This document shows positions 1,953 through 13,677 of a stretch of 39,753 nt of DNA, piece by piece. The stretch lies in contig JAKEFJ010000001.1 of NCBI GenBank assembly GCA_022616665.1, positions 1 through 39,753 on the forward strand, in the 5' to 3' direction. The stretch's first letter is position 1, and each line of letters begins with the position of its first letter. Made by a program: the position numbers and the translations under genes. The notes under the pieces are model-generated. The model did no database searches and was not told the origin of the DNA. It saw only the letters and a list, made by a program, of their open reading frames with translations. Source of the DNA: Acidobacteriota bacterium (GTDB lineage Bacteria; Acidobacteriota; Polarisedimenticolia; Gp22-AA2; AA152).

Positions 1953-2007
1953 TATCCGACTGATCGATCCCATACTGCTTTGAAGGCACGTGGAGAGCGA
2001 GGGAGTC

Positions 2008-2742
2008 ATGAAGCGACCCGTTGAGAGGATTGTCCGTGCTTGCCTGCTCGGTTTGCTCCTCTTCCTGTGCCCCGGATCCCCGCATCCGCAGAGCAGCCCC
2101 GAGCCGAATGCGCAGCGCCTGCCGACCCAGCTGTTCACCGTGCGATTCAAGGATGTGAACGATGTCTATCTGCTCATCGAGCCACTGCTCTCGGCGAAGG
2201 GCTCGGTGTCGATGCAGCCAAGGTTGAAGACTCTGGCCGTCACCGACGACGAGGACACGCTGCGCCGAGTCGAAGAGATGATACGCAGCTACGACCTTCC
2301 TCCGAAAAACGTCGAAGTGGCTCTGCAGCTCATCCTGGCCTCAACCGAAGGGCAGCCCGAGAAGATCTCGCCGCGCATCCGGGGGGTCATCGACAAGCTC
2401 AATGAGATCTCCACCCGCTGGTCCGACTACCGGCTGCTGGGAAGCGCCACGGTCACCGCCAGCGAAGGGGAGAAGGCCAGCGTGGAGATGGGCCAGGACT
2501 ATCGCATCAGCTTCGCGGTGGATTACGCATCCGGCGAGCAGCAGTTGGTTCACTTCAAGCGCTTCACTTTGGACCGGCGGGACGCCGCAAAGGGACCCGA
2601 GACTTCGGGGGAGACCTATACCCGGGTCCTGGACACAGCGCTGAACCTCAAGGAAGACAAGCTCTACATCTTCGGGGCCTCGAAGATGGAGGGCAGTAAC
2701 CGGGCGCTGTTCATGACCATCACCGCGTCCGCCCAGCAGTAG
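2008..2742 (+). CDS. Small exported secretin-like protein (N1-type domain)
   Basis: This 244-residue protein starts at the ATG preceded by a GAGCGAGGGAG stretch; an in-frame GTG at 1990 would only lengthen the signal peptide. Residues 5-24 form a signal peptide (RIVRACLLGLLLFLCPG). Residues 40-97 read as a secretin N1-type fold, with FTVRFKDVNDVYLLIEPLL and a conserved LAVTDDEDTLRRVEEMI. The second half carries SEGEKASVEMGQ (about 152-163), which closely resembles SEGEKASVKIGD in the full secretin encoded at 9485-11881. It is far too short to form a secretin ring. It may be a periplasmic accessory of the secretin or a degenerate paralogue. It is the first gene of the operon and ends 13 bases before pilC. 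Confidence 0.65.
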   Translation: MKRPVERIVRACLLGLLLFLCPGSPHPQSSPEPNAQRLPTQLFTVRFKDVNDVYLLIEPLLSAKGSVSMQPRLKTLAVTDDEDTLRRVEEMIRSYDLPPKNVEVALQLILASTEGQPEKISPRIRGVIDKLNEISTRWSDYRLLGSATVTASEGEKASVEMGQDYRISFAVDYASGEQQLVHFKRFTLDRRDAAKGPETSGETYTRVLDTALNLKEDKLYIFGASKMEGSNRALFMTITASAQQ

Positions 2743-2755
2743 GAGAGCCGGGACC

Positions 2756-3973
2756 ATGCCCGAGTTCGTCGCCAAGATGGGAACCGCCGAGGGGGATGTC
2801 ATCGAGCGGGTCTACCTTTCGGAGAACGCCGATGCCCTGCGGCGCGACCTGGAGAGGAAGGACTTCCTGGTTTTCTCCATCCGCCGCAAAGCGGGGTTCG
2901 GCTCCCTCCTCCCCGGCATGGGCCGTGGCCGGATCAAGATGAAGGAATTCCTCATCTTCAACCAGCAGCTGGCGGCGCTTCTCCAGGCGGGGCTCCCCAT
3001 CATCTCCTCACTGGATGTCCTCCTGGAGCGCCGCAAGAATCCGTCGTTCCGGAAGGCCCTCACCGACATCCGCGATCAGGTCAAGGCGGGGACCTCGCTC
3101 TCCGAGGCGTTCGCATCCCAGGGGGATCTCTTTCCGCCCATCTACTCTTCCTCCCTGGCCTCCGGCGAGCGAAGCGGCGAAGTGGCTTCCGTCCTGCGAC
3201 GCTACATCACTCATACCAAGAAAGTGCTGGGCCTGAAGAGCAAGGTGATCGCGGCGCTCATCTATCCCGCCATCCTCTTCCTCATGTCCTTCATGGTGAT
3301 CGCAATCCTGATCTATTTCGTCATTCCCAAATTTTCTGAAATCTACGCCGGCTTCGGCGGGATCGAGAATCTCCCGCTGATCACCAAGATACTTCTGGGG
3401 GTCTCGAACTTCGCCACGCAAAACGCCGCGCTCATGGTGCCGGGGCTCCTGGCGGCGTTCCTGGGCTTCACCGCCTGGCGGCGGACGGCGTCGGGAGCGC
3501 TTACGGTAGACAGCTGGGTCCTCAAAGTCCCCTTCGTTGGAGGCATCATCCACAAGTACTGCGTCTCGCGCTTCACGCGCACCCTGGGCACTCTCGTGGC
3601 GGGAGGCATCCCGCTGGTCAACTCGCTGGAAATCGCCGCTCCCGCGGCAGGCAACCGGTTCTTCGTGAGCAAGCTTTCCACCGTCCCGGGGAAAGTGCGG
3701 GAAGGAAACGCCCTGGCCACCTCGCTGGAGCAGACCGGGCTGTTCTCCGATTTGGCGCTCGAGATGATTAAAGTCGGGGAATCCACCGGGGCCCTGCAGG
3801 AAATGCTGGACAACGTCTCGTCGCTTTATGACGAGGAGATCGACGACAGCCTCCAGAACATCGAAGCGCTCATGGTGCCCGTGATGCTGGTGTTCATGGG
3901 GGTGTTCATCGCGTTCATCATGCTGGCCATCTACATGCCCCTCATCAAGAGCTACGGAATGCAGGGGCGCTAG
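2756..3973 (+). CDS. pilC: Inner-membrane platform protein PilC/GspF
   Basis: At 405 residues this is the normal length for the polytopic platform protein that links the assembly ATPase to the pseudopilus. The N-terminal part (residues 1-45) is the small YcjW-like cytoplasmic segment common in PilC. Two T2SSF domains follow, at about 70-195 and 270-395, each ending in hydrophobic spans (for example ALIYPAILFLMSFMVIAI and VPVMLVFMGVFIAFIMLAIY). The family segments FNQQLAALLQAGLPI and TLGTLVAGGIPLVNSLEIA are clear, and each marks the start of a repeat. The gene sits between the small secretin-like gene and the ATPase gene with short gaps. Confidence 0.93.
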   Translation: MPEFVAKMGTAEGDVIERVYLSENADALRRDLERKDFLVFSIRRKAGFGSLLPGMGRGRIKMKEFLIFNQQLAALLQAGLPIISSLDVLLERRKNPSFRKALTDIRDQVKAGTSLSEAFASQGDLFPPIYSSSLASGERSGEVASVLRRYITHTKKVLGLKSKVIAALIYPAILFLMSFMVIAILIYFVIPKFSEIYAGFGGIENLPLITKILLGVSNFATQNAALMVPGLLAAFLGFTAWRRTASGALTVDSWVLKVPFVGGIIHKYCVSRFTRTLGTLVAGGIPLVNSLEIAAPAAGNRFFVSKLSTVPGKVREGNALATSLEQTGLFSDLALEMIKVGESTGALQEMLDNVSSLYDEEIDDSLQNIEALMVPVMLVFMGVFIAFIMLAIYMPLIKSYGMQGR

Positions 3974-4000: not shown

Positions 4001-5677
4001 TTGGCCCAGGAAGTGAAGCAACGCAAGCCCGCCGCGGTGGCGGAGGCGAGCACCGGGACGATTCAGCCTGAACCCCAGGTCCCTCGCGAGGCCGAGACTC
4101 TCTCCGAGGACCTCCTCGCACAGCGGTTGGCGGAGAGGCTGAAGGTCCCTTACGTGAACCTCAATGATTTCCAGATTGACGCCGATCTGTTCCGCTCGAT
4201 TCCCGTGGACCTCATGTTCCGGTACAACTTCGTTCCCTGGAAAATGGAGGAGGGACGATTGCTGGTGGTGATTGCCGATCCCAGCAACGTCCTGATGATG
4301 GACGACCTGGAACTCCTGCTGGGCCGCCCCTTGATCCCGGCGGTTGGAAGCTCTTCCGCCATCCAGGAGATCCTCAAGAAGAGCGAATCTTCCCAGCGGG
4401 TCCTGGAAGAGGCCACCGAGGAGTTCAAGCTCCAGCTCATCCAGGATGACGAGAGCGGCGAGGATCAGCTCACCATCGACAAGCTCACCTCCGACCAGAG
4501 TCCCATCGTCAAGCTGGTTGACACCACCATCTTCAACGCCCTCCAGCGCCGGGCCTCCGACATCCACATCGAGACCCGGGATCGGGAGGTGATGATCAAG
4601 TACCGCATCGACGGGGTGCTCATGAACGCCATGGAGCCCATCGACAAGAAGTTTCATTCGACCATCATCTCGCGCATCAAAGTCATGTCCGAGCTGGACA
4701 TCGCCGAGAAACGGATTCCCCAGGACGGCCGCTTCAAGCTCAAGATCCGCGGCCGGGCCATCGACTTCCGCGTCTCCATCATGCCCAGCGTCCACGGCGA
4801 GGACGCGGTCATCCGAATCCTGGACAAGGAATCGGTCAACCAGGAATTCTCCGAGCTCCGACTGGACGTGCTGGGATTCAGCGCCGAGGATCTCAAGAAG
4901 CTGCGGAAGTTCATCCGGGAGCCCTACGGGATGATCCTGGTCACCGGGCCCACCGGCTCGGGAAAGACCACCACCCTCTACGCCGCCCTCTCGGAGATCA
5001 AGAGCGTGGAGGACAAGATCATCACCATCGAGGATCCGGTGGAGTACCAGCTTTCCGGGATTACCCAGATTCCGGTGAACGAGAAGAAGGGTCTGACGTT
5101 CGCCCGGGGCCTCCGTTCCATCCTGCGGCACGACCCGGACAAGATCATGGTGGGAGAGATCCGCGACGAGGAAACGGCGCAGATCGCCATCCAGTCGGCC
5201 CTCACCGGACACCTGGTATTCACCACCGTCCACGCCAACAATGTGGTGGACGTGCTCGGGCGATTCCTGAACATGAAAGTGGAGCCCTACAACTTCGTCT
5301 CGGCCCTGAACTGCATCGTGGCCCAGCGGCTGGTGCGGCTCATCTGTGCCAAGTGCAAGCATCCGATGACCTACCCGGCGACGTTCATCGAAGAGAGCGG
5401 GTTGGATTCAGCGCGCTACGCCGCCCACGTGTTTCAGGAGGGGCGCGGTTGCCTGGATTGCAACGGCACCGGGTACAAGGGACGGATGGCCATCGCCGAG
5501 ATTCTGGACATGTCCGATCAAATCCGTCAGCTGATCCTCGACCGGCGCTCCGCGGCGGAGATCAAGAAAGCGGCGCGCGAGGAGGGGATGGTCTTCATGC
5601 GCGACGTCGCAGTGGCCCGCGCGCTGGAAGGGCACACCACGCTTCGAGAAATCAACAAAGTTACGTTCGTGGAGTGA
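4001..5677 (+). CDS. pilB: Type IV pilus/type II secretion assembly ATPase PilB/GspE
   Basis: This 558-residue hexameric ATPase powers pseudopilus extension at the cytoplasmic side. The start is a TTG behind GGGAGGAGGG. Residues 34-126 form the N-terminal T2SSE_N (MshEN-like) domain. The catalytic domain has Walker A GPTGSGKTTT (about 316-325), an Asp box near 340-350 (ITIEDPVEY), Walker B IMVGEIRDEE (382-391) and the His box LVFTTVHANN (405-414). A zinc site of four cysteines is complete (CAKC at 449-452 and CLDC at 484-487), typical of PilB/GspE and absent from the retraction ATPase PilT. No PilT gene accompanies it. Confidence 0.95.
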   Translation: MAQEVKQRKPAAVAEASTGTIQPEPQVPREAETLSEDLLAQRLAERLKVPYVNLNDFQIDADLFRSIPVDLMFRYNFVPWKMEEGRLLVVIADPSNVLMMDDLELLLGRPLIPAVGSSSAIQEILKKSESSQRVLEEATEEFKLQLIQDDESGEDQLTIDKLTSDQSPIVKLVDTTIFNALQRRASDIHIETRDREVMIKYRIDGVLMNAMEPIDKKFHSTIISRIKVMSELDIAEKRIPQDGRFKLKIRGRAIDFRVSIMPSVHGEDAVIRILDKESVNQEFSELRLDVLGFSAEDLKKLRKFIREPYGMILVTGPTGSGKTTTLYAALSEIKSVEDKIITIEDPVEYQLSGITQIPVNEKKGLTFARGLRSILRHDPDKIMVGEIRDEETAQIAIQSALTGHLVFTTVHANNVVDVLGRFLNMKVEPYNFVSALNCIVAQRLVRLICAKCKHPMTYPATFIEESGLDSARYAAHVFQEGRGCLDCNGTGYKGRMAIAEILDMSDQIRQLILDRRSAAEIKKAAREEGMVFMRDVAVARALEGHTTLREINKVTFVE

Positions 5678-5684
5678 AGGCTTC

Positions 5685-6728
5685 GTGCTCGCACCTCAGC
5701 TCGAGATGATTCTGCAGAAAATCGGCCTGGTGCCGGGCGTGGGACCCGCCAGGCTCAAGCCACGCCTTCCCCAGGTGGCGGTGATCGTCCTGCCGGACCG
5801 CGTCGGAGTGGTGCGCCTGTCGGGGCCCGCCACGCGCGGCGCAACCGGGAGCTCCCGCCCCTCGCTGATTGCCTACAAGGAGGTTTCGATTCCACCGGGA
5901 GTGGTGCTGCCCTCCTTGACCCACGCCAACTTCGTCGATTCCGGCCCGGTGGATCAGGCGCTGCGCGCGGCCTTTTTGGAGGCGGCGCCGAAGGACGATC
6001 GGATCTGCCTGGTGGTTCCCGACAGCATGGCGCGGGTTTCCATTCTGAGGTTCAACCGGATGCCGGCGAACCGCAGGGAAGTTCTGGACCTGATCCGCTT
6101 CCGCATGCAGAAGGTCCTCCCGTTCCGCGTCGAGGAGGCGGCGCTGGATTACCAGCTGCTGTCGGAGTCTGCGGCGGCGGAGCCGGACTTTCTCGTGACC
6201 CTCGCCCAGAGGACCGTTCTCTTCCAGTACGAACGGCTCCTGACCAGGATGAATCGGTTTCCCGGCCTGGTGGATCTCGAGAGCTTCAGCCTGGTGAACC
6301 TGCTCTTCAGGGACCCGGAGATGGCCGGGATGGACAAAGGAGATTGGGCCTTGGTGAACGCCGGGCCGGGCTATCTCACGGTGCTGTTCTTCCGGGAAGG
6401 CTCGCTCTGCTTCTACCGCTCGAAAGCGGTGGCCGATGAGGAGCGCTCCCCCGACCGGTTCCATCCGGCCCTTCGCCGGGAACTGGCCTCGTGCGCCTCC
6501 TTCTACCGGGAGCACCTCTCGGGCTCGGCGCTGGCACGCGCCGTCCTGAGGACCTCCAACGGGGAATCCCGCTTCCTGCCGGGAATGGTTCAGGAGGAGC
6601 TGGCATGCCCCGTCGCCATGCTGGATGCCGGAAAGGCCGTCGCGCTTCCGGCCGGCTCCGACCCGGCGGATCCGAAATGGCAGGCCCTCGCACCGGCCAT
6701 CGGCGCCGCGCTGGGGAGGCGGGCATGA
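5685..6728 (+). CDS. pilM: PilM-like actin-fold assembly protein
   Basis: This 347-residue protein starts at GTG 5685, seven bases after pilB. PilM is a cytoplasmic actin-like protein that binds the N-terminal tail of PilN and joins the inner-membrane alignment complex. The similarity rests on overall pattern: a beta-rich N-terminus with PQVAVIVLPDRVGVVRLSG, the segment RFRMQKVLPFRVEEAALDYQLL typical of PilM/GspL, and a length equal to PilM. Identification is supported mostly by the fixed order M-N-O-P-Q. The stop overlaps the pilN start as ATGA. A GspL-type cytoplasmic domain is the closest alternative. Confidence 0.82.
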   Translation: MLAPQLEMILQKIGLVPGVGPARLKPRLPQVAVIVLPDRVGVVRLSGPATRGATGSSRPSLIAYKEVSIPPGVVLPSLTHANFVDSGPVDQALRAAFLEAAPKDDRICLVVPDSMARVSILRFNRMPANRREVLDLIRFRMQKVLPFRVEEAALDYQLLSESAAAEPDFLVTLAQRTVLFQYERLLTRMNRFPGLVDLESFSLVNLLFRDPEMAGMDKGDWALVNAGPGYLTVLFFREGSLCFYRSKAVADEERSPDRFHPALRRELASCASFYREHLSGSALARAVLRTSNGESRFLPGMVQEELACPVAMLDAGKAVALPAGSDPADPKWQALAPAIGAALGRRA

Positions 6729-8122
6729 GGCTTCTGGAGATCAACCTTGCCACCCGTCCCTTTCGAAACAACACCCTTTATTGGGTGGGATTCGGATCGG
6801 CGGCTTTCATCCTGCTGGTGCTCACGGGCATGAACGGCTGGCTCTTCTTCCACTCGGGCACCTCGGTCAAGCATTACGAGGAGGAGATGGTCCTCAAGCA
6901 GCAGAAGCGCGATGGACTCTCCCGGGACGAGCAGCGCCTGGGCGTGAAGCTCACCAAGCTCGATTTCAACGGCCTGCGGCAGCAGGCGGAATTCGCCAAT
7001 GATGCCATCCGGCGGCGCGTCTTCTCCTGGACGGAGCTGTTCAACCGGCTGGAAGAGGTGGTTCCCCCCGCGGTGATGCTTACGGCGGTGCGGCCTGAAA
7101 TCCAGGCTGAGGGGATCTCCATCGTGGCGGAAGGGATGGCCAAGGATCAGGAAGGGCTGCTGGATTTCGAGGAGGGTCTCATCCGCAGCGCTTACTTCGC
7201 CCGGATCTACCCGGGCAGCGAGCGCAGAGAGCAGCGGGGTGGAGAGCTCCACTTTTCGCTGAAATTCGATTACTTGCCGGGTGGCCGGCCGGATGCGGCG
7301 CCGGCGGCTCCCGCGAAAAAGCCGGTGAAGCCGGCAAGCGAGGTGGCCGGCGATTCGACGAAGGGGTCGGAGCCACCCCACGAGACGGTGAAAGCCCCTG
7401 CGGCTCCACCGCCCCAGCCCGCCCCGAGCAACATTCCGGCAGGTGGATCCGGCCTTCTCGCCGCACAAACCCCAGCGCTTCCAGCGGCGACCGGCGTGGC
7501 TCCCGCCCCGGCGGCGACGGCTCCGGCCAATCCACAGCCGGTCCCGGCTCCGGTGGCAAATGATTCCCATGCCACGGCGCCTTCCAAGGCCCCGCCGAAA
7601 GCATCTTCAGGGTATCAGGGGGGGCGAACCCCTCCGGCACCCGGCACCAATCCGCGATTCACGCTCAACGCGAAACGCGGCGGCCCGGCCGGCCGTTCCA
7701 TGCTCAAACCCAAGATGGGAGTGGCGACTCGCATCGCAGGGGCGGAGGCGGGTCCCGGTCCCGAGGAACAGAAGATGCTGGCGGAAGCCGCGGCTGCGGC
7801 CTCCTTCAACGACAAGCCTCTGGAAGACGTGATCGCCTATCTGATGAAGAACCGCTCCATGACCTTCGTCTTCGATGGGAGCTTCGACTTGAGGCAGAGG
7901 GTGACCATGGACGTCTGGGAAAAGGAGCAGCGGGAAATCGTCGACATGCTCGCCGCCAAGCTGGGCGCGGTGGCCAACCAGGACGGTGAGAACAACTATC
8001 GTTTCTCGAAGCCTCCGGAGACACTTGAGGAGCCTCCCGTGGAGGAGGAGCCGGTGCCCGAGGAGCCCGCGGAAGAGCCGCCTCCCAAGGATGACGGCCA
8101 GAAAGAGGATGGGAATGTTTAA
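6725..8122 (+). CDS. pilN: PilN-like protein with an added C-terminal STN-like domain
   Basis: The ATG at 6725 overlaps the pilM stop; an open frame extends upstream but lies inside pilM. The N-terminus MRLLEINLATRPFRNN is the classic PilN motif that docks on PilM. One membrane span follows at about 19-41, then a coiled-coil and ferredoxin-like periplasmic part to about residue 185. Unlike ordinary PilN (about 180-220 residues), this protein has 465. A Pro/Ala-rich linker (about 185-345) leads to a C-terminal domain at about 350-430 that reads as a secretin/TonB short N-terminal (STN) fold, with FNDKPLEDVIAYLMKNRSM and VTMDVWEKEQREIVDMLA. The end is acidic and Pro-rich. The fusion could let PilN touch the secretin N-domains directly. 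Confidence 0.82.
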   Translation: MRLLEINLATRPFRNNTLYWVGFGSAAFILLVLTGMNGWLFFHSGTSVKHYEEEMVLKQQKRDGLSRDEQRLGVKLTKLDFNGLRQQAEFANDAIRRRVFSWTELFNRLEEVVPPAVMLTAVRPEIQAEGISIVAEGMAKDQEGLLDFEEGLIRSAYFARIYPGSERREQRGGELHFSLKFDYLPGGRPDAAPAAPAKKPVKPASEVAGDSTKGSEPPHETVKAPAAPPPQPAPSNIPAGGSGLLAAQTPALPAATGVAPAPAATAPANPQPVPAPVANDSHATAPSKAPPKASSGYQGGRTPPAPGTNPRFTLNAKRGGPAGRSMLKPKMGVATRIAGAEAGPGPEEQKMLAEAAAAASFNDKPLEDVIAYLMKNRSMTFVFDGSFDLRQRVTMDVWEKEQREIVDMLAAKLGAVANQDGENNYRFSKPPETLEEPPVEEEPVPEEPAEEPPPKDDGQKEDGNV

Positions 8123-8726
8123 CCGATTCGACATTCGAGAGGAGCGGGTGAAGGTTGCCGCCATCCTGGGGGTGCTTGCGGTGGTGAACCTGGCTCTCTA
8201 CATCACGCTCAATCTCCCTCGGATGCATCGGCAGGCCGTGGAGGAGCGTCGGGTGTCGGATCTGACGCAGAACCTGGCCGAGGTGTCGCGCCGGGTGGCG
8301 TTGATGAAGGATCTGGATCAGCGCTTTGAAACGGAAAAGACCAAGGTTGATACTTTCTATGACGATGTGCTGGGGGCCAAGGACATCCGGATGATCCAGA
8401 TCCAGCGGGAGGTGCGAGGCATCGCCGCCTCGCTGGGGATGGATCCCGAGACCATCGCCTACCAGCCGGACATCCTGGACAAAGTCGGCCTGATTTCCTT
8501 CAACATCAACGTGCCGCTGGTGGGTGATTACCGTAACCTCCGGCAGTTCATCAACAAGATCGAGAAATCGCAGAATTTTCTCATCGTGGAAAGCGTCAGC
8601 CTGGGTGGAGCGAAGGACGGCGGCGCGCTGTTGGATCTGAACATCCGCCTCTCCACCTATTTCGATGCGCCGGAGCTGCGCGAAATTCAGAAGGCGCCCG
8701 CAGAAAAGCGGCCGGGGAAGAGTTGA
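8115..8726 (+). CDS. pilO: PilO-like inner-membrane alignment protein
   Basis: PilO pairs with PilN in the inner membrane and links it to PilP. I place the start at ATG 8115, six bases after AGAGG; an ATG at 8109 is equally in frame and adds two residues. Both overlap the pilN stop. The protein has 203 residues, a normal PilO length. One membrane span lies at about 14-34 (VAAILGVLAVVNLALYITL), then a coiled coil (about 40-85) and a ferredoxin-like domain that contains the PilO segment LVGDYRNLRQFINKIEKSQ. The pilP start follows the stop by one base. Confidence 0.85.
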   Translation: MFNRFDIREERVKVAAILGVLAVVNLALYITLNLPRMHRQAVEERRVSDLTQNLAEVSRRVALMKDLDQRFETEKTKVDTFYDDVLGAKDIRMIQIQREVRGIAASLGMDPETIAYQPDILDKVGLISFNINVPLVGDYRNLRQFINKIEKSQNFLIVESVSLGGAKDGGALLDLNIRLSTYFDAPELREIQKAPAEKRPGKS

Positions 8727-8727
8727 G

Positions 8728-9435
8728 ATGGATCTTGCCTTCGAGCTGAAAAAGCGGCGCCGGGAGCTGACTCTGGGCGGCGCGCTGCTGGTGGTCCTGA
8801 CGGTCTTTTTCTATACCCAATCCGGCGGAGGGCCATCCGGAGGAGCGGGGGAGGAGACGGTGATGGTCACCGGTCCGCCGGCGGCGGTGGCCAAGGCGAT
8901 GGCCAAGATCGGCTCCGTCAAGCTCCCGGGAGTCCTGCTGGAGCGGTTGAACGATGATCGGGTCCCTTACGATCCGACCCAGCGGAACATCTTCCGCTAC
9001 GGAAATCTGCCGCCCCCTCCCCCGAGCCCCGAAGAGCTGGCCCGGATCGAGGCGGCAAAACAGGCGGCGGAGCAGGCCCGCCAGGCGGCCATCCAGGCGG
9101 AGCTTGACGCGCAGAAGAACCGGGCGGCGGCGGAGGCGGCGGCCCTGAACCAGCCCCCCATCGATCCTGCGACCGGTCTGCCGGTTGGCGTGGCGCCGCC
9201 TCCTCCCCCCAAGCCGATGCCTCCGGCGATCACGCTGCGGTACTCGGGCTACCTGGGCGCGGAGCGCGACAAGATGGCGGTGCTTTACAGCGGTGAAGAC
9301 ATGCTCCTGGCTCGCGCCGGAGATGTGGTGGAGAGGCAATTCCGCGTTTTAGACATCGGCTACGATTGGGTTAAGATTGGCTACGTCGACCCCCAATTTG
9401 CGGACCAGTATCAGAAACTCCGGATGGGACCGTGA
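8728..9435 (+). CDS. pilP: PilP/GspC-like periplasmic linker protein
   Basis: This 235-residue protein starts at ATG 8728, one base after the pilO stop. It has a short basic N-terminus, one membrane span at about 15-31 and no lipobox. A helical, Ala/Gln/Glu-rich stretch (about 105-145) follows, then a Pro-rich linker. The C-terminal beta domain (about 165-235, with RYSGYLGAERDKMAVLYSG and GDVVERQFRVLDIGYDWVKI) is of the PilP/GspC homology-region type that docks on the secretin N0 domain. Classical PilP is a lipoprotein, so this membrane-anchored form is closer to GspC in topology. Confidence 0.78.
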   Translation: MDLAFELKKRRRELTLGGALLVVLTVFFYTQSGGGPSGGAGEETVMVTGPPAAVAKAMAKIGSVKLPGVLLERLNDDRVPYDPTQRNIFRYGNLPPPPPSPEELARIEAAKQAAEQARQAAIQAELDAQKNRAAAEAAALNQPPIDPATGLPVGVAPPPPPKPMPPAITLRYSGYLGAERDKMAVLYSGEDMLLARAGDVVERQFRVLDIGYDWVKIGYVDPQFADQYQKLRMGP

Positions 9436-9484
9436 GGCGGGAAGGTTTTTCCTTAACGGGAGTGAGACCCCCGAGGCCAAAGTG

Positions 9485-11881
9485 ATGATCAAGCCAAGGC
9501 AGGCAACATCGCGAGTCGCCATTCTGCTCCTGGTCCTGATTCCCCTGGCGGCCTGCGCCAGCACGACCCCGTACAGGCAGGGGGAAAAGTTCATGGAAGC
9601 GGAGAATTTTGACCAGGCGGTCCTGTCTTTCTCCAAGGCGCTGGCCCAGAAGCCAAGTGAGATCAAATACCAGGTGGCTTTGGCCCGGGCCCGGCTGCGC
9701 GCCTCCCAGCTACATTTCGATCGGGGGCAGAAGTACTCCGCTGCAGGGCAGACCGAGTCGGCCATCGGGGAAATGCAGCAGGCGGTCCTGCTGGATCCCT
9801 CCAACCAGTACGCCGCCAACGAGCTGGCGAAGCTCGTCGAAGTGTTCAGGAATCAGAGGGGACAGGGGCCCAGCGAAATCGAGAAGATGAAGCAAAAGGC
9901 CAAGATGGTCGGCCGGCTCACACCCAGGCTCAACCCCAAGTCGAACATCCCCATCGCCCTGAAATTCAAGGACGAGACCGTTCGGAAGGTCTACGACGCC
10001 TTGAGCAAGGCCACCGGCGTGAATTTCCTCTATGACGAGCGGGTGGACCTCAACAAGAAGGTCACGGTGGAGCTGACGGACGTCACCTTCAGCAAGGCGC
10101 TCGACAACCTCATGGCGCAGAACAAGCACTTCTTCAAAGTGTGGGACGAGAACACCATCCTCATCGCCGACGAGAACCAGCAGAAACACAAGGAATATGA
10201 CGACCTGGTCATCCAGACCTTCTACCTGAGCAACGCCGACGTCAAAGACGTCCAGGTCCTGCTGCGAACCCTCCTGGATGCGCGTCAGCTGGCCCAAAAC
10301 GACCGGCTCAACGCCATCACCATCCGCGACACGCCGGAGCGTGTGCAGGTGGCGGAGAAGATCATCGAGTCCAACGACAAGGCGAAATCCGAGCTGATCA
10401 TCGACGTGCAGCTCCTGGAGCTGAACCGCAATCTGCTGCAAAACCTCGGCATCGACCTGACGGGCGCGAGTGGCGGCTCAGGGAAATCCCTCACCATCGG
10501 ATACACCGCGGGGACCACGGTGCCGCTGAACAACCTGGGGCTGCTGCAGCAGCTGGGAAACTACGCCCTCGGACCCATCCCGAGCGTCATCATCAATTTC
10601 CTGCGCACCGACGCCGACGCCAAGGTGCTGGCCAAGCCCCAGCTGCGGGTCTCGGAGGGGGAGAAGGCGTCCGTGAAGATCGGGGATCGGATCCCGATTC
10701 CCACCACCACCTTCAACACGGCCACCACCGGAGGCAGCGTCTTCGCGCCCATCACCTCCTTCACCTACCAGAACGTCGGGATCAACATCGACGTGGAGCC
10801 GAGGGTTCATCACAACAAGGAGATCACCCTCAAGCTCAAGGTGGAGCTATCGAACGTAGCGGGAGTCGTGTCAGCCGGAGGCGGAGTCAGCCAACCCATC
10901 ATCGGAACGCGTGAGATCGAGACGCAGATTCGCTTGAAGGACGGCGAGACCAACCTCCTGGCGGGGCTCATCCGGGAAGAGGAGCGCTCCACCCTGAGCA
11001 GCGTGCCCGGGCTGGGGCAGATTCCGGTCCTGAAGCACCTTTTCGGCACCACGGAAACGGAGAGGAAAGAGACCGACATCGTTCTGACTCTGACGCCCCA
11101 CATCATCCGGGTGCCCGACATCAACCAGGCGGATCTGGAGCCCCTCTGGATCGGGACGGACCAGGATGTCGGATTGCGCGGCGCCTCCAAGACCAGCCCC
11201 TTCGGCGCTCCTTTTGAATCCGACGGCACCGGCGATGAGGAGTTGCCGCCGGAAGCGCGTGGCGCGGAGCAGGAGCCGTTGAATCCCAACCAGGGAGCGG
11301 TTCCCCTGGTGGCCGCCGTGGGTGCTGGAGGTCAGGCGGTCCCCGCGGCGCAAAACGGGACTTCCAACGGCGCGCAGACTGGCAGGCCGGTGGCGTCGGG
11401 AGGGGGAGCCCCGCCGGCGCCTATACCTCCCACTCCCACGGTCCTTACGACTGTCTCGTTTAATCCTCCCAATGTCCTCGCGACGGTGGGGGACACGATG
11501 ACCATTCAGGTCATGATCACCCAAGGCGCCCGGGTCGGGAGCGTGCCGTTTCATGTCGCCTACGATCCCAAGATCTTGCAGTTCGATTCAGCGCACAGCA
11601 GCGAAGGCGGCTTTCTGAAGCAGGACGGAGCGACCACCATCTATAACGCGCAAGCCAGCTCCCTCAACGAGGTATTCGTGGCACTGGCGCGGGTGGGCGT
11701 GCCCACCGGGGCCGGCGGGGACGGCTTGCTATGCACCCTTTCGTTCGTGGCTATCGCGACGGGAACCACGACCCTGAGCTTCACCGAGGCAGCGGTGCTG
11801 GATCCCCAGGGACAGCCAACGCTCTATCAGTTCGCGAACCCCGTGCAAGTGCAGGTGAGTCCGAGTCAGAAGGCACAATGA
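9485..11881 (+). CDS. pilQ: Lipoprotein secretin with TPR and cohesin-like domains (PilQ/GspD)
   Basis: This is the outer-membrane gate of the machine. I choose ATG 9485, which gives a lipoprotein signal (AILLLVLIPLAAC, lipid Cys24); the frame is open further upstream without signal character. Order in 798 residues: TPR-like helices 28-110; STN/N0 domain about 155-215 (FKDETVRKVYDALSKATGVN); secretin N1 domain about 225-290 (IQTFYLSNADVKDVQVLL); secretin core about 295-545, with SEGEKASVKIGD near 390 and the C-terminal signature SSVPGLGQIPVLKHLFG. A low-complexity linker leads to a cohesin-like beta-sandwich at about 655-790 (VPFHVAYDPKILQF). Only one N1-type domain is visible, fewer than in GspD. 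The stop overlaps the first pseudopilin start. Confidence 0.9.
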   Translation: MIKPRQATSRVAILLLVLIPLAACASTTPYRQGEKFMEAENFDQAVLSFSKALAQKPSEIKYQVALARARLRASQLHFDRGQKYSAAGQTESAIGEMQQAVLLDPSNQYAANELAKLVEVFRNQRGQGPSEIEKMKQKAKMVGRLTPRLNPKSNIPIALKFKDETVRKVYDALSKATGVNFLYDERVDLNKKVTVELTDVTFSKALDNLMAQNKHFFKVWDENTILIADENQQKHKEYDDLVIQTFYLSNADVKDVQVLLRTLLDARQLAQNDRLNAITIRDTPERVQVAEKIIESNDKAKSELIIDVQLLELNRNLLQNLGIDLTGASGGSGKSLTIGYTAGTTVPLNNLGLLQQLGNYALGPIPSVIINFLRTDADAKVLAKPQLRVSEGEKASVKIGDRIPIPTTTFNTATTGGSVFAPITSFTYQNVGINIDVEPRVHHNKEITLKLKVELSNVAGVVSAGGGVSQPIIGTREIETQIRLKDGETNLLAGLIREEERSTLSSVPGLGQIPVLKHLFGTTETERKETDIVLTLTPHIIRVPDINQADLEPLWIGTDQDVGLRGASKTSPFGAPFESDGTGDEELPPEARGAEQEPLNPNQGAVPLVAAVGAGGQAVPAAQNGTSNGAQTGRPVASGGGAPPAPIPPTPTVLTTVSFNPPNVLATVGDTMTIQVMITQGARVGSVPFHVAYDPKILQFDSAHSSEGGFLKQDGATTIYNAQASSLNEVFVALARVGVPTGAGGDGLLCTLSFVAIATGTTTLSFTEAAVLDPQGQPTLYQFANPVQVQVSPSQKAQ

Positions 11882-12399: not shown

Positions 12400-12818
12400 G
12401 AAGCTTGAATTGGCCGGAGATGCGAAACAGAAAAGATTCAAGCGAGCGTGGGTTTACGCTGCTCGAGCTCCTCGTCGTGATAGCCCTCATTGGGATCATC
12501 TCGACGATCGCGGTGACCCAGTTCAGGCACATGCCGCAGAGGGCCAAAGAGGCGGTGCTCAAGGAGGACCTCTACATTCTTCGGGATGTCATCGATCAGC
12601 ACTTCGCCGACAAGGGGAAGTACCCCTCGACGCTCCAGGACCTGGTGGAGGCGGGCTATATCCGGAAGGTGCCGGTGGATCCGCTCACCGACTCAGCGGA
12701 TAGCTGGGTGATCGAAACCGTCCCCGCGGAGGAAGGTGAAGAGGCTGGAGGGGTCTATGATGTTCACAGCGGCGCCCCGGGCATGGCGCTGGATGGATCA
12801 AGCTACGCGGAGTGGTAA
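12396..12818 (+). CDS. Type II secretion pseudopilin, GspG-like (second copy)
   Basis: This 140-residue prepilin has a textbook cleavage site ERG/FTLLELLVVIALIGIIST, with Phe at +1 and Glu at +5. The start is uncertain: GTG 12396 overlaps the previous stop and has ACGAGG upstream, while ATG 12420 also gives a usable short leader. The body has the GspG pattern DLYILRDVIDQHFADKGKYP followed by VPVDPLTD and ends ALDGSSYAEW. The shared ALDGSxYxxW ending shows that the two neighbouring pseudopilins are paralogues. This is the better candidate for the major pseudopilin. Confidence 0.88.
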   Translation: MRSLNWPEMRNRKDSSERGFTLLELLVVIALIGIISTIAVTQFRHMPQRAKEAVLKEDLYILRDVIDQHFADKGKYPSTLQDLVEAGYIRKVPVDPLTDSADSWVIETVPAEEGEEAGGVYDVHSGAPGMALDGSSYAEW

Positions 12819-12858
12819 GTCTCGGGGAGGTCATCCCCGGAAGGGAGCAAGGGAATCC

Positions 12859-13677
12859 ATGAATACGACAAAAGGAATTCTACCCGTGCTGGGAGCCGCG
12901 GCGGGCCTCATGATCGTCGCGTGCGGCGTGGCGCTGACCGCCTCGTGCCGCGGATCCGATCAGGTGGCGCCTGAAGGGTCCACCATCACGATAGCGGCGA
13001 ACCCCGCGACCATCGTCATCGCGACGCCTGGCGGCAGCGGCAGCTCGGATGTGGTGGCGACCGTCTACAGCGCCGCGGGCGTGCCCCAGGAAGATCAGGA
13101 CGTGCGCTTCTCGAGCAGCGCCGGCTCCCTCTTTACTCCTCCGCCCGATAATCAGCCTGCTGCGAACATTCCGATTCCCACCGATAACCTCGGCAATGCC
13201 CACGTCGTGCTGACGACGACCACGACCACCACCGTGACCGCTCGTTCCGGGACGGCAACGGGGAGCCTGAGCTTGAGCACGGTCAACGGGAACCTGAATG
13301 CGATCACCATTAACCAGGACGACCCAGGCGGCAACTGCAAAGATACAATCACGGCCTGCAGCGATACCATATGTGTGACAGCGCAGGCAGTGGACGATGA
13401 AGGGATGGGGATACCCGGCGTGGTCATCGTTTTCAGCCAGTTGGACGGAACGAACAGCGATGGGGATCCCTTCGTTGTACAGTTCTCCCCGCTAACCCAG
13501 GTTACTACCGATGCGGGTGGATTTGCACACGCCACAGTCAAGGTGAAAGACTCCGACTGCGACGTATGTTCGGTCAGCACATCACCACCAACACCGTGCA
13601 CTGGAAACCTGCAGGCCTCCCTGCAAGGAGGCGGTTTCCCCAGCGGACCGCTGGAATTCACAGCGGCCATCAATTAA
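12859..13677 (+). CDS. Secreted or lipid-anchored Ig-like repeat protein
   Basis: This 272-residue protein starts at ATG 12859 with GGGAGCAAGGGAA upstream. The N-terminal hydrophobic segment holds two possible lipid cysteines, in IVAC (Cys22) and TASC (Cys30), so a lipoprotein is likely. Two Ig-like domains of the bacterial Big/invasin type follow (about 38-130 and 140-270). Typical phrases are DVVATVYSAAGVPQEDQDVRF and its second-domain counterpart VTAQAVDDEGMGIPGVVIVF. The second domain has several cysteines (CKDTITACSDTIC and DCDVCSVS) that could form disulfides in the periplasm. A run of Thr marks the join. Its place between pseudopilin genes suggests a surface or periplasmic part, or a cargo, of the machine; function is unknown. 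Confidence 0.7.
   Translation: MNTTKGILPVLGAAAGLMIVACGVALTASCRGSDQVAPEGSTITIAANPATIVIATPGGSGSSDVVATVYSAAGVPQEDQDVRFSSSAGSLFTPPPDNQPAANIPIPTDNLGNAHVVLTTTTTTTVTARSGTATGSLSLSTVNGNLNAITINQDDPGGNCKDTITACSDTICVTAQAVDDEGMGIPGVVIVFSQLDGTNSDGDPFVVQFSPLTQVTTDAGGFAHATVKVKDSDCDVCSVSTSPPTPCTGNLQASLQGGGFPSGPLEFTAAIN

Follow-up and report, generated by a model that had tools for sequence, protein, structure and literature searches.

What is known of how type IV pilus and type II secretion machines couple the inner-membrane platform to the secretin comes down mainly to a single contact, that of the HR domain of PilP or GspC with the N0 domain of the secretin. According to PMC3169554, the HR domain of GspC touches strand 1 and helix 1 of the GspD N0 domain, with Phe5, Phe9, Thr20 and Asn24 named as contact residues, and PMC3441751 describes PilP as binding the N0 domain of PilQ in a manner matching GspC and GspD. 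GspB is presented in PMC9239104 as a second inner-membrane protein that reaches the secretin N0 domain beside GspC. In TonB-dependent signalling, the single-pass inner-membrane protein PupR binds the N-terminal STN domain of its receptor PupB through its own C-terminal STN domain and a juxta-membrane subdomain, a location of the STN domain that PMC7186176 calls previously unobserved. Here we describe a PilN-like inner-membrane protein from an Acidobacteriota bacterium (GenBank assembly GCA_022616665.1, contig JAKEFJ010000001.1, positions 1 to 39,753; the whole 39,753-nucleotide stretch is referred to as the window) that ends in a domain which, judged by profile comparison, belongs to the N0/STN type.

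The window protein resembles the PilN (PF05137) of type IV pilus alignment complexes in its place in a PilM-PilN-PilO-PilP-secretin order, its single transmembrane helix and its PilN-type domain; ordinary PilN stops soon after this domain, whereas in the window protein a long linker leads on to an STN-like domain and then to an acidic tail. The added domain resembles the N0/STN domain of secretins (PF07660; PilQ N0, 4ar0, and GspD N0, 4jtm) in profile homology and fold, but the secretin domain is N-terminal in an outer-membrane protein and the window domain is C-terminal in an inner-membrane protein. FecR/PupR-type regulators (FecR_C, PF16344; 6ovk, 4m0n) supply the best fold matches and also carry their STN domain at the C-terminus, yet their anti-sigma domain and juxta-membrane all-beta (CJM) subdomain are without counterpart in the window protein, which has a PilN domain and a long linker instead. 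GspB/OutB of type II secretion is likewise an additional inner-membrane protein at the secretin N0 beside GspC; GspB binds N0 through an HR domain, whereas the domain added to PilN is itself N0-like.

Searches with the window copy alone were negative: the tail domain matched no Pfam model, phmmer found no match to it in the PDB at E≤10, and a search of the genome with PF07660, the check proposed in a first-pass annotation of this DNA, did not report the PilN tail. PF07660 was however matched by five of the nine aligned PilN-tail members (best E 1.1e-5, counted by E-value; the model's cut-off is 28.4 bits), and FecR_C was matched by four of the nine (best E 1e-4). Searched against the PDB, a nine-member profile gave weak matches, among some unrelated chains, to the FecR-like entries 4m0n/4m0h (E 0.11) and to PilQ N0 4ar0 (E 0.32). 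To exclude help from the clearer copies of a second family (f2), we built a profile solely from the four copies of the window's own family (f1) and searched 2586 open reading frames (ORFs) with it. The best 40 matches consisted solely of f2 PilN tails, at E 4.5e-10 to 8.8e-7, and of secretin N0 domains, at E 6.6e-7 and weaker. Comparison by hhalign linked f1 to f2 (97.6%, E 2.7e-12) and, in agreement with homology to accepted N0 domains, f1 to secretin N0 (96.0%, E 4.9e-9). In all 11 genomes that carry the fusion, the sole other whole-genome match of the nine-row family profile was the N0 domain of the secretin in the same operon. These profile comparisons indicate homology of the PilN tail domain to N0/STN domains beyond chance, and the first-pass claim of a PilN ending in an STN-like domain is borne out by profiles, structure model and conservation. 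An N-terminal place is usual for STN domains, though not absolute; lying C-terminally in PilN, this one is therefore an STN-type domain in an unusual place.

The reading frame of the fusion is intact. Its gene lies between pilM and pilO/pilP, ahead of the secretin gene, as expected for PilN, but the PF05137 score of 15.7 bits is under the cut-off of 22.8 and we therefore call the protein PilN-like; PilN was nonetheless the sole Pfam match to the whole 465-residue protein at E≤10. The PilN part (residues 1-184) is 0.68-0.76 identical to L006/L005 and matches class-wide. About 280 residues follow the PilN domain, against 4-127 in 32 secretin-adjacent PilN ORFs outside the class and ≤26 in 26 of these, in keeping with the earlier description of a protein about twice the normal length. 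That description assigned the last 110 residues to the STN-like domain, but the stretch has two parts, an STN-like domain of about 85 residues and a Pro/Glu tail of 31; it also placed the start of the domain at 7771, whereas the codon of residue 350 begins one base later, at 7772. The start of the acidic tail (ETLEEPPVEEEP) agrees with GGEP-L-x-E-x-P-V-x-EEP of family f2 in the nine-member alignment, and the hhalign match of f1 to f2 extends through the tail. A frameshift or assembly artefact was rejected, since a single ORF holds both the PilN and the STN domain in 9 carriers out of 11 (G000-G004, G007, G008, G010 and G017, with G001 truncated at its 5' end); in G006 and G009 they are split over different contigs. 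Within the linker, a short basic stretch (KRGG..GRSMLKP) at 7680-7730, ahead of the STN domain, recurs in f1. By eye, G-K-P-x-L-K-P-like stretches also occur near the ends of some domain-less PilN tails of family f4, a possible linear motif shared with the f1 stretch.

An AlphaFold2 model computed from four rows (two PilN tails and two secretin N0 domains) reached a predicted local distance difference test score (pLDDT) of 80.1 and a predicted template modelling score of 0.65, four of its five models lying near 79. It comprises a helix followed by β-α-β-β-α-β-β and hence contains two β-α-β motifs, in a model that depends on the secretin N0 rows. Foldseek matched it to 4m0n (E 2e-4), then to 4m0h, 3cdd (a phage tail protein), PupR (6ovk_R), InvG, PilQ (6w6m) and GspD N0 (4jtm). 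VIA-align ranked 4m0h (Z 8.7), 4m0n (Z 8.5) and PupR (6ovk_R, Z 8.4) above secretin N0 domains at Z about 6 to 7, a range in which phage baseplate proteins also appear. The top solved matches are thus the C-terminal STN domains of FecR/PupR-type anti-sigma regulators, ahead of secretin N0 domains, and the predicted topology is that of an N0/STN domain.

We surveyed the distribution of the fusion within Acidobacteriota, how often it occurs having been raised in the first-pass annotation. PilN matches were found in 36 of 41 genomes of the class, and strong matches to the nine-row domain profile (E 5.9e-25 or better) in 11 of the 41: all four f1 genomes, six of eight f2 genomes and the one f8 genome. 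The two f2 genomes without a match are G005, whose contig begins inside the operon, and G011, which is 63% complete. The f8 copy (L008) was placed in the alignment by eye; a profile made without it picks L008 out of 1049 ORFs with 17.3 bits (E 2e-4), a weak match that makes it the least sure member. In a phylum sample of 199 genomes the domain profile matched in 73. All 56 matches outside the class were inspected, 52 of them belonging to ORFs with a match to a secretin-core profile, two being cut by contig ends (L098, L076) and two (L074, L075) being STN-like without a secretin core; none of the 56 is a PilN, though more distant fusions could escape the profile. L074, L075 and L078 are small ORFs of other acidobacteria that hold one or two STN-like domains but lack a secretin-core match.

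In a tree of the domains, the PilN copies form one clade (support 98/100) apart from secretin N0 domains, with long branches for f8, PilQ and the f1 stem, and an N0/STN domain was probably gained once in a sub-branch of the class. The most likely source would be a secretin-type N0 domain copied onto the end of a long flexible PilN tail. Eighteen PilNs from non-carriers of the class have tails of 15-267 residues without an STN domain (a count that omits L026, which has a run of N in its ORF, and L029, which is truncated where its contig stops; L010, truncated in the same way, is a carrier). From this pattern of tail lengths, a short PilN probably came first, was then extended by a long disordered tail and finally gained the STN domain. 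That the domain replaces a lost secretin N0 was considered and rejected, the secretin N0 being present in all 11 carriers.

Within f1, the ratio of non-synonymous to synonymous substitution rates (dN/dS) was 0.28-0.46 for the STN domain, 0.03-0.24 for the PilN domain and 0.34-0.70 for the linker, while for the acidic tail five of six pairs gave 0.13-0.29 and one gave 0.89. These figures are rough, as several pairs approach saturation at synonymous sites. The length of the STN domain is kept in f1 (≤2 gap sites), and the domain is under purifying selection. The low ratios of the acidic tail, below those of the domain in five of six pairs, together with conservation of its motif between f1 and f2 and the frequency in the class of long disordered PilN tails without any domain, could point to a role within the platform or at the cell wall. 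The domain would then serve PilN self-pairing, contact with PilO or spacing in the peptidoglycan zone, and the acidic tail would be the real binding motif. We consider this improbable, for the nearest relative of the domain is the secretin's own N0 and its best fold matches pair across the envelope.

Our preferred explanation, to which we give about an even chance, is that the tail domain is an added tether that docks near the junction of secretin N0 and PilP. The N-terminus of PilN would lie in the cytoplasm with PilM and the remainder in the periplasm, where the linker of about 165 residues may allow the domain to extend to the secretin's periplasmic mouth, at which PilP meets the N0 ring. 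Docked there, the domain would act as a second, flexible tether between inner and outer membrane, most readily by direct contact of the STN domain with secretin N0/N1, by analogy with PupR and PupB, and this could improve how the inner platform is recruited to, or aligned with, the pore above it, alongside the PilP bridge. The first-pass annotation had instead suggested a different bridge. That suggestion is weakened, since a PilP-like gene and a secretin N0 both stand beside the fusion and most of the class runs the machine without the domain; a supplementary contact accounts for this better than a replacement would.

Several observations weigh against such a tether. According to PMC7186176, the isolated PupR STN domain did not bind PupB in pull-downs, being insufficient or unfolded alone, which speaks against a simple transfer of the PupR model, and PilN lacks a counterpart of the juxta-membrane subdomain of PupR. 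A two-row AlphaFold2 model (the window copy and L003) had a pLDDT of 55.7 and no usable fold, and the four-row model is not independent of homology because two of its rows are secretin N0 domains. The STN domain evolves faster, under less constraint, than the PilN domain. It is also dispensable: 30 of the 41 class genomes have no match to it, some solely through broken assembly, and the operon is alike around PilNs with and without it. The same operon with and without the domain argues for an addition rather than a replacement of the PilP bridge, and the domain is an accessory of a standing machine.

With GspD numbering transferred to the alignment, Thr20 and Asn24 fall at PilN residues 372 and 376. 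The aligned positions are Ala/Ala in all six f2 PilN tails, in all seven f2 secretins and also in f1 secretins, but Tyr/Asn in all four PilN tails of f1, the window's family. Helix 1 is the segment of the f2 tail most similar to the cognate secretin (identity 0.36). Given that HR domains are described in PMC3169554 and PMC3441751 as binding N0 through strand 1 and helix 1, the f2 residues raise the alternative, also named in the first-pass annotation, that the tail domain mimics N0, binding a PilP-like HR-type domain on the face used by the secretin and so competing for PilP or holding it until the secretin arrives. Judged by the difference between Ala/Ala and Tyr/Asn, mimicry is plausible in f2 but less plausible in the window. 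Sequence searches did not confirm an HR fold in the PilP-like protein, the position map depends on the GspD numbering used and N0-like residues could reflect mere ancestry; overall we regard mimicry as possible but rather unlikely.

The genes around the fusion (Table 1) missed the curated cut-offs for GspE, GspF, GspD (169 bits, cut-off 351) and PilQ (136, cut-off 284), and we therefore speak of a machine like those of type II secretion and type IV pili. For the PilP-like protein, sequence searches found no PilP/T2SSC family match and no HR-domain relative in the PDB. The secretin probably starts at the ATG at 9485, with what looks by eye like a lipobox. Its TPR region at the N-terminus and its cohesin domain at the C-terminus are both unusual for a pilus secretin. 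A second, PilQ-like secretin lies elsewhere in the genome (L001, G000:C273; AMIN and STN domains by eye), so the window machine is not the genome's only one. Further downstream, at 12736-13677, pilin-like genes flank the gene of an Ig-like protein (Big_1, below cut-off), which both f1 and f2 conserve.

Table 1. Features of the PilN-STN operon in the window.
Feature	Position	Strand	Basis
Protein with lone Secretin_N (N1-type) domain	1990..2742	+	PF03958 30.9 bits; conserved upstream of gspF
GspF/PilC-type platform protein	2756..3973	+	PF00482; GspF 320 bits, cut-off 424
GspE/PilB-type assembly ATPase	4001..5677	+	PF00437 and MshEN; GspE 542 bits, cut-off 630
PilM-like protein	5685..6728	+	TIGR01175 E 1.6e-13, below cut-off
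PilN-like inner-membrane protein with C-terminal STN-like domain, 465 aa	6725..8122	+	Translation; PF05137 15.7 bits; PilM-N-O-P-secretin order
Residues 1-184: putative cytoplasmic N-terminus, single transmembrane helix, PilN-type domain in the periplasm	6725..7276	+	Topology inferred from sequence
Pro/Ala-rich linker, residues 185-345 (about 165 residues)	7277..7759	+	Gapped, identity 0.34-0.45 within family f1
STN/N0-type domain, residues about 350-434 (~85 residues); helix, then β-α-β-β-α-β-β (predicted)	7772..8026	+	Profiles, model, conservation
Acidic Pro/Glu tail, residues 435-465 (31 residues)	8027..8119	+	Alignment of 9 members
PilO/GspM-like protein	8109..8726	+	PF04350 22.8 bits, cut-off 22; GspM model 25 bits, below cut-off
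PilP-like protein (by position; C-terminal part HR-like by eye)	8728..9435	+	Position and conservation
Secretin with TPR, STN/N0, Secretin_N, secretin and cohesin domains	9377..11881	+	Pfam; NCBIfam GspD/PilQ below cut-offs
N0/STN region of cognate secretin, the genome's closest relative of the PilN tail domain	9911..10180	+	Family profile 9932-10156, E 5.2e-14; PDB 4ar0 PilQ N0 E 2.1e-4

At the head of the operon (807-2742) lie genes for an extracytoplasmic function (ECF) sigma factor, a small protein with one transmembrane helix and the lone Secretin_N protein, and the order from the ECF gene through these to GspF, GspE, PilM and PilN is kept in all five carriers inspected upstream. Among ten further regions of the class, the Secretin_N gene is present in all ten, the ECF gene in nine and the one-helix protein in three. 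The nine with an ECF gene are from non-carriers; the tenth, from the f8 carrier G017, ends before any ECF gene. The ECF and Secretin_N genes were accordingly rejected as companions of the fusion, as they also stand upstream where the PilN domain is absent. An ECF gene and a one-helix protein at the operon head, with closest folds that are the C-terminal STN domains of anti-sigma regulators, would be expected of a FecR-like sensor in which the PilN domain reports the state of the secretin to the sigma factor. With the ECF gene upstream in nine of the ten further regions, all nine from genomes whose PilN lacks the domain, and with no anti-sigma domain in PilN, we consider this very improbable.

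If the tail domain is a tether, secretin machines and TonB-dependent signalling might share a rule by which the terminal STN domain of an inner-membrane protein pairs with the periplasmic STN/N0 domain of its partner. The PilN fusion would then be the pilus-type counterpart of PupR/FecR, copied from the secretin's own N0 and giving two N0 populations, one per membrane, a generalization that we offer tentatively and hold to be unlikely as it stands. In open-licence full text we found no paper on PilN with an STN or PF07660 domain, nor on this acidobacterial operon, and its parts are of known kinds while their combination and placement appear new. With this fusion, one more inner-membrane protein joins those known to carry their STN domain C-terminally. 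The finding also provides a natural lineage with an N0-type domain on the platform side, whose sister lineages run the same operon without it; platform-secretin coupling is therefore open to test by comparing lineages with and without the domain and by deletion of this single domain.
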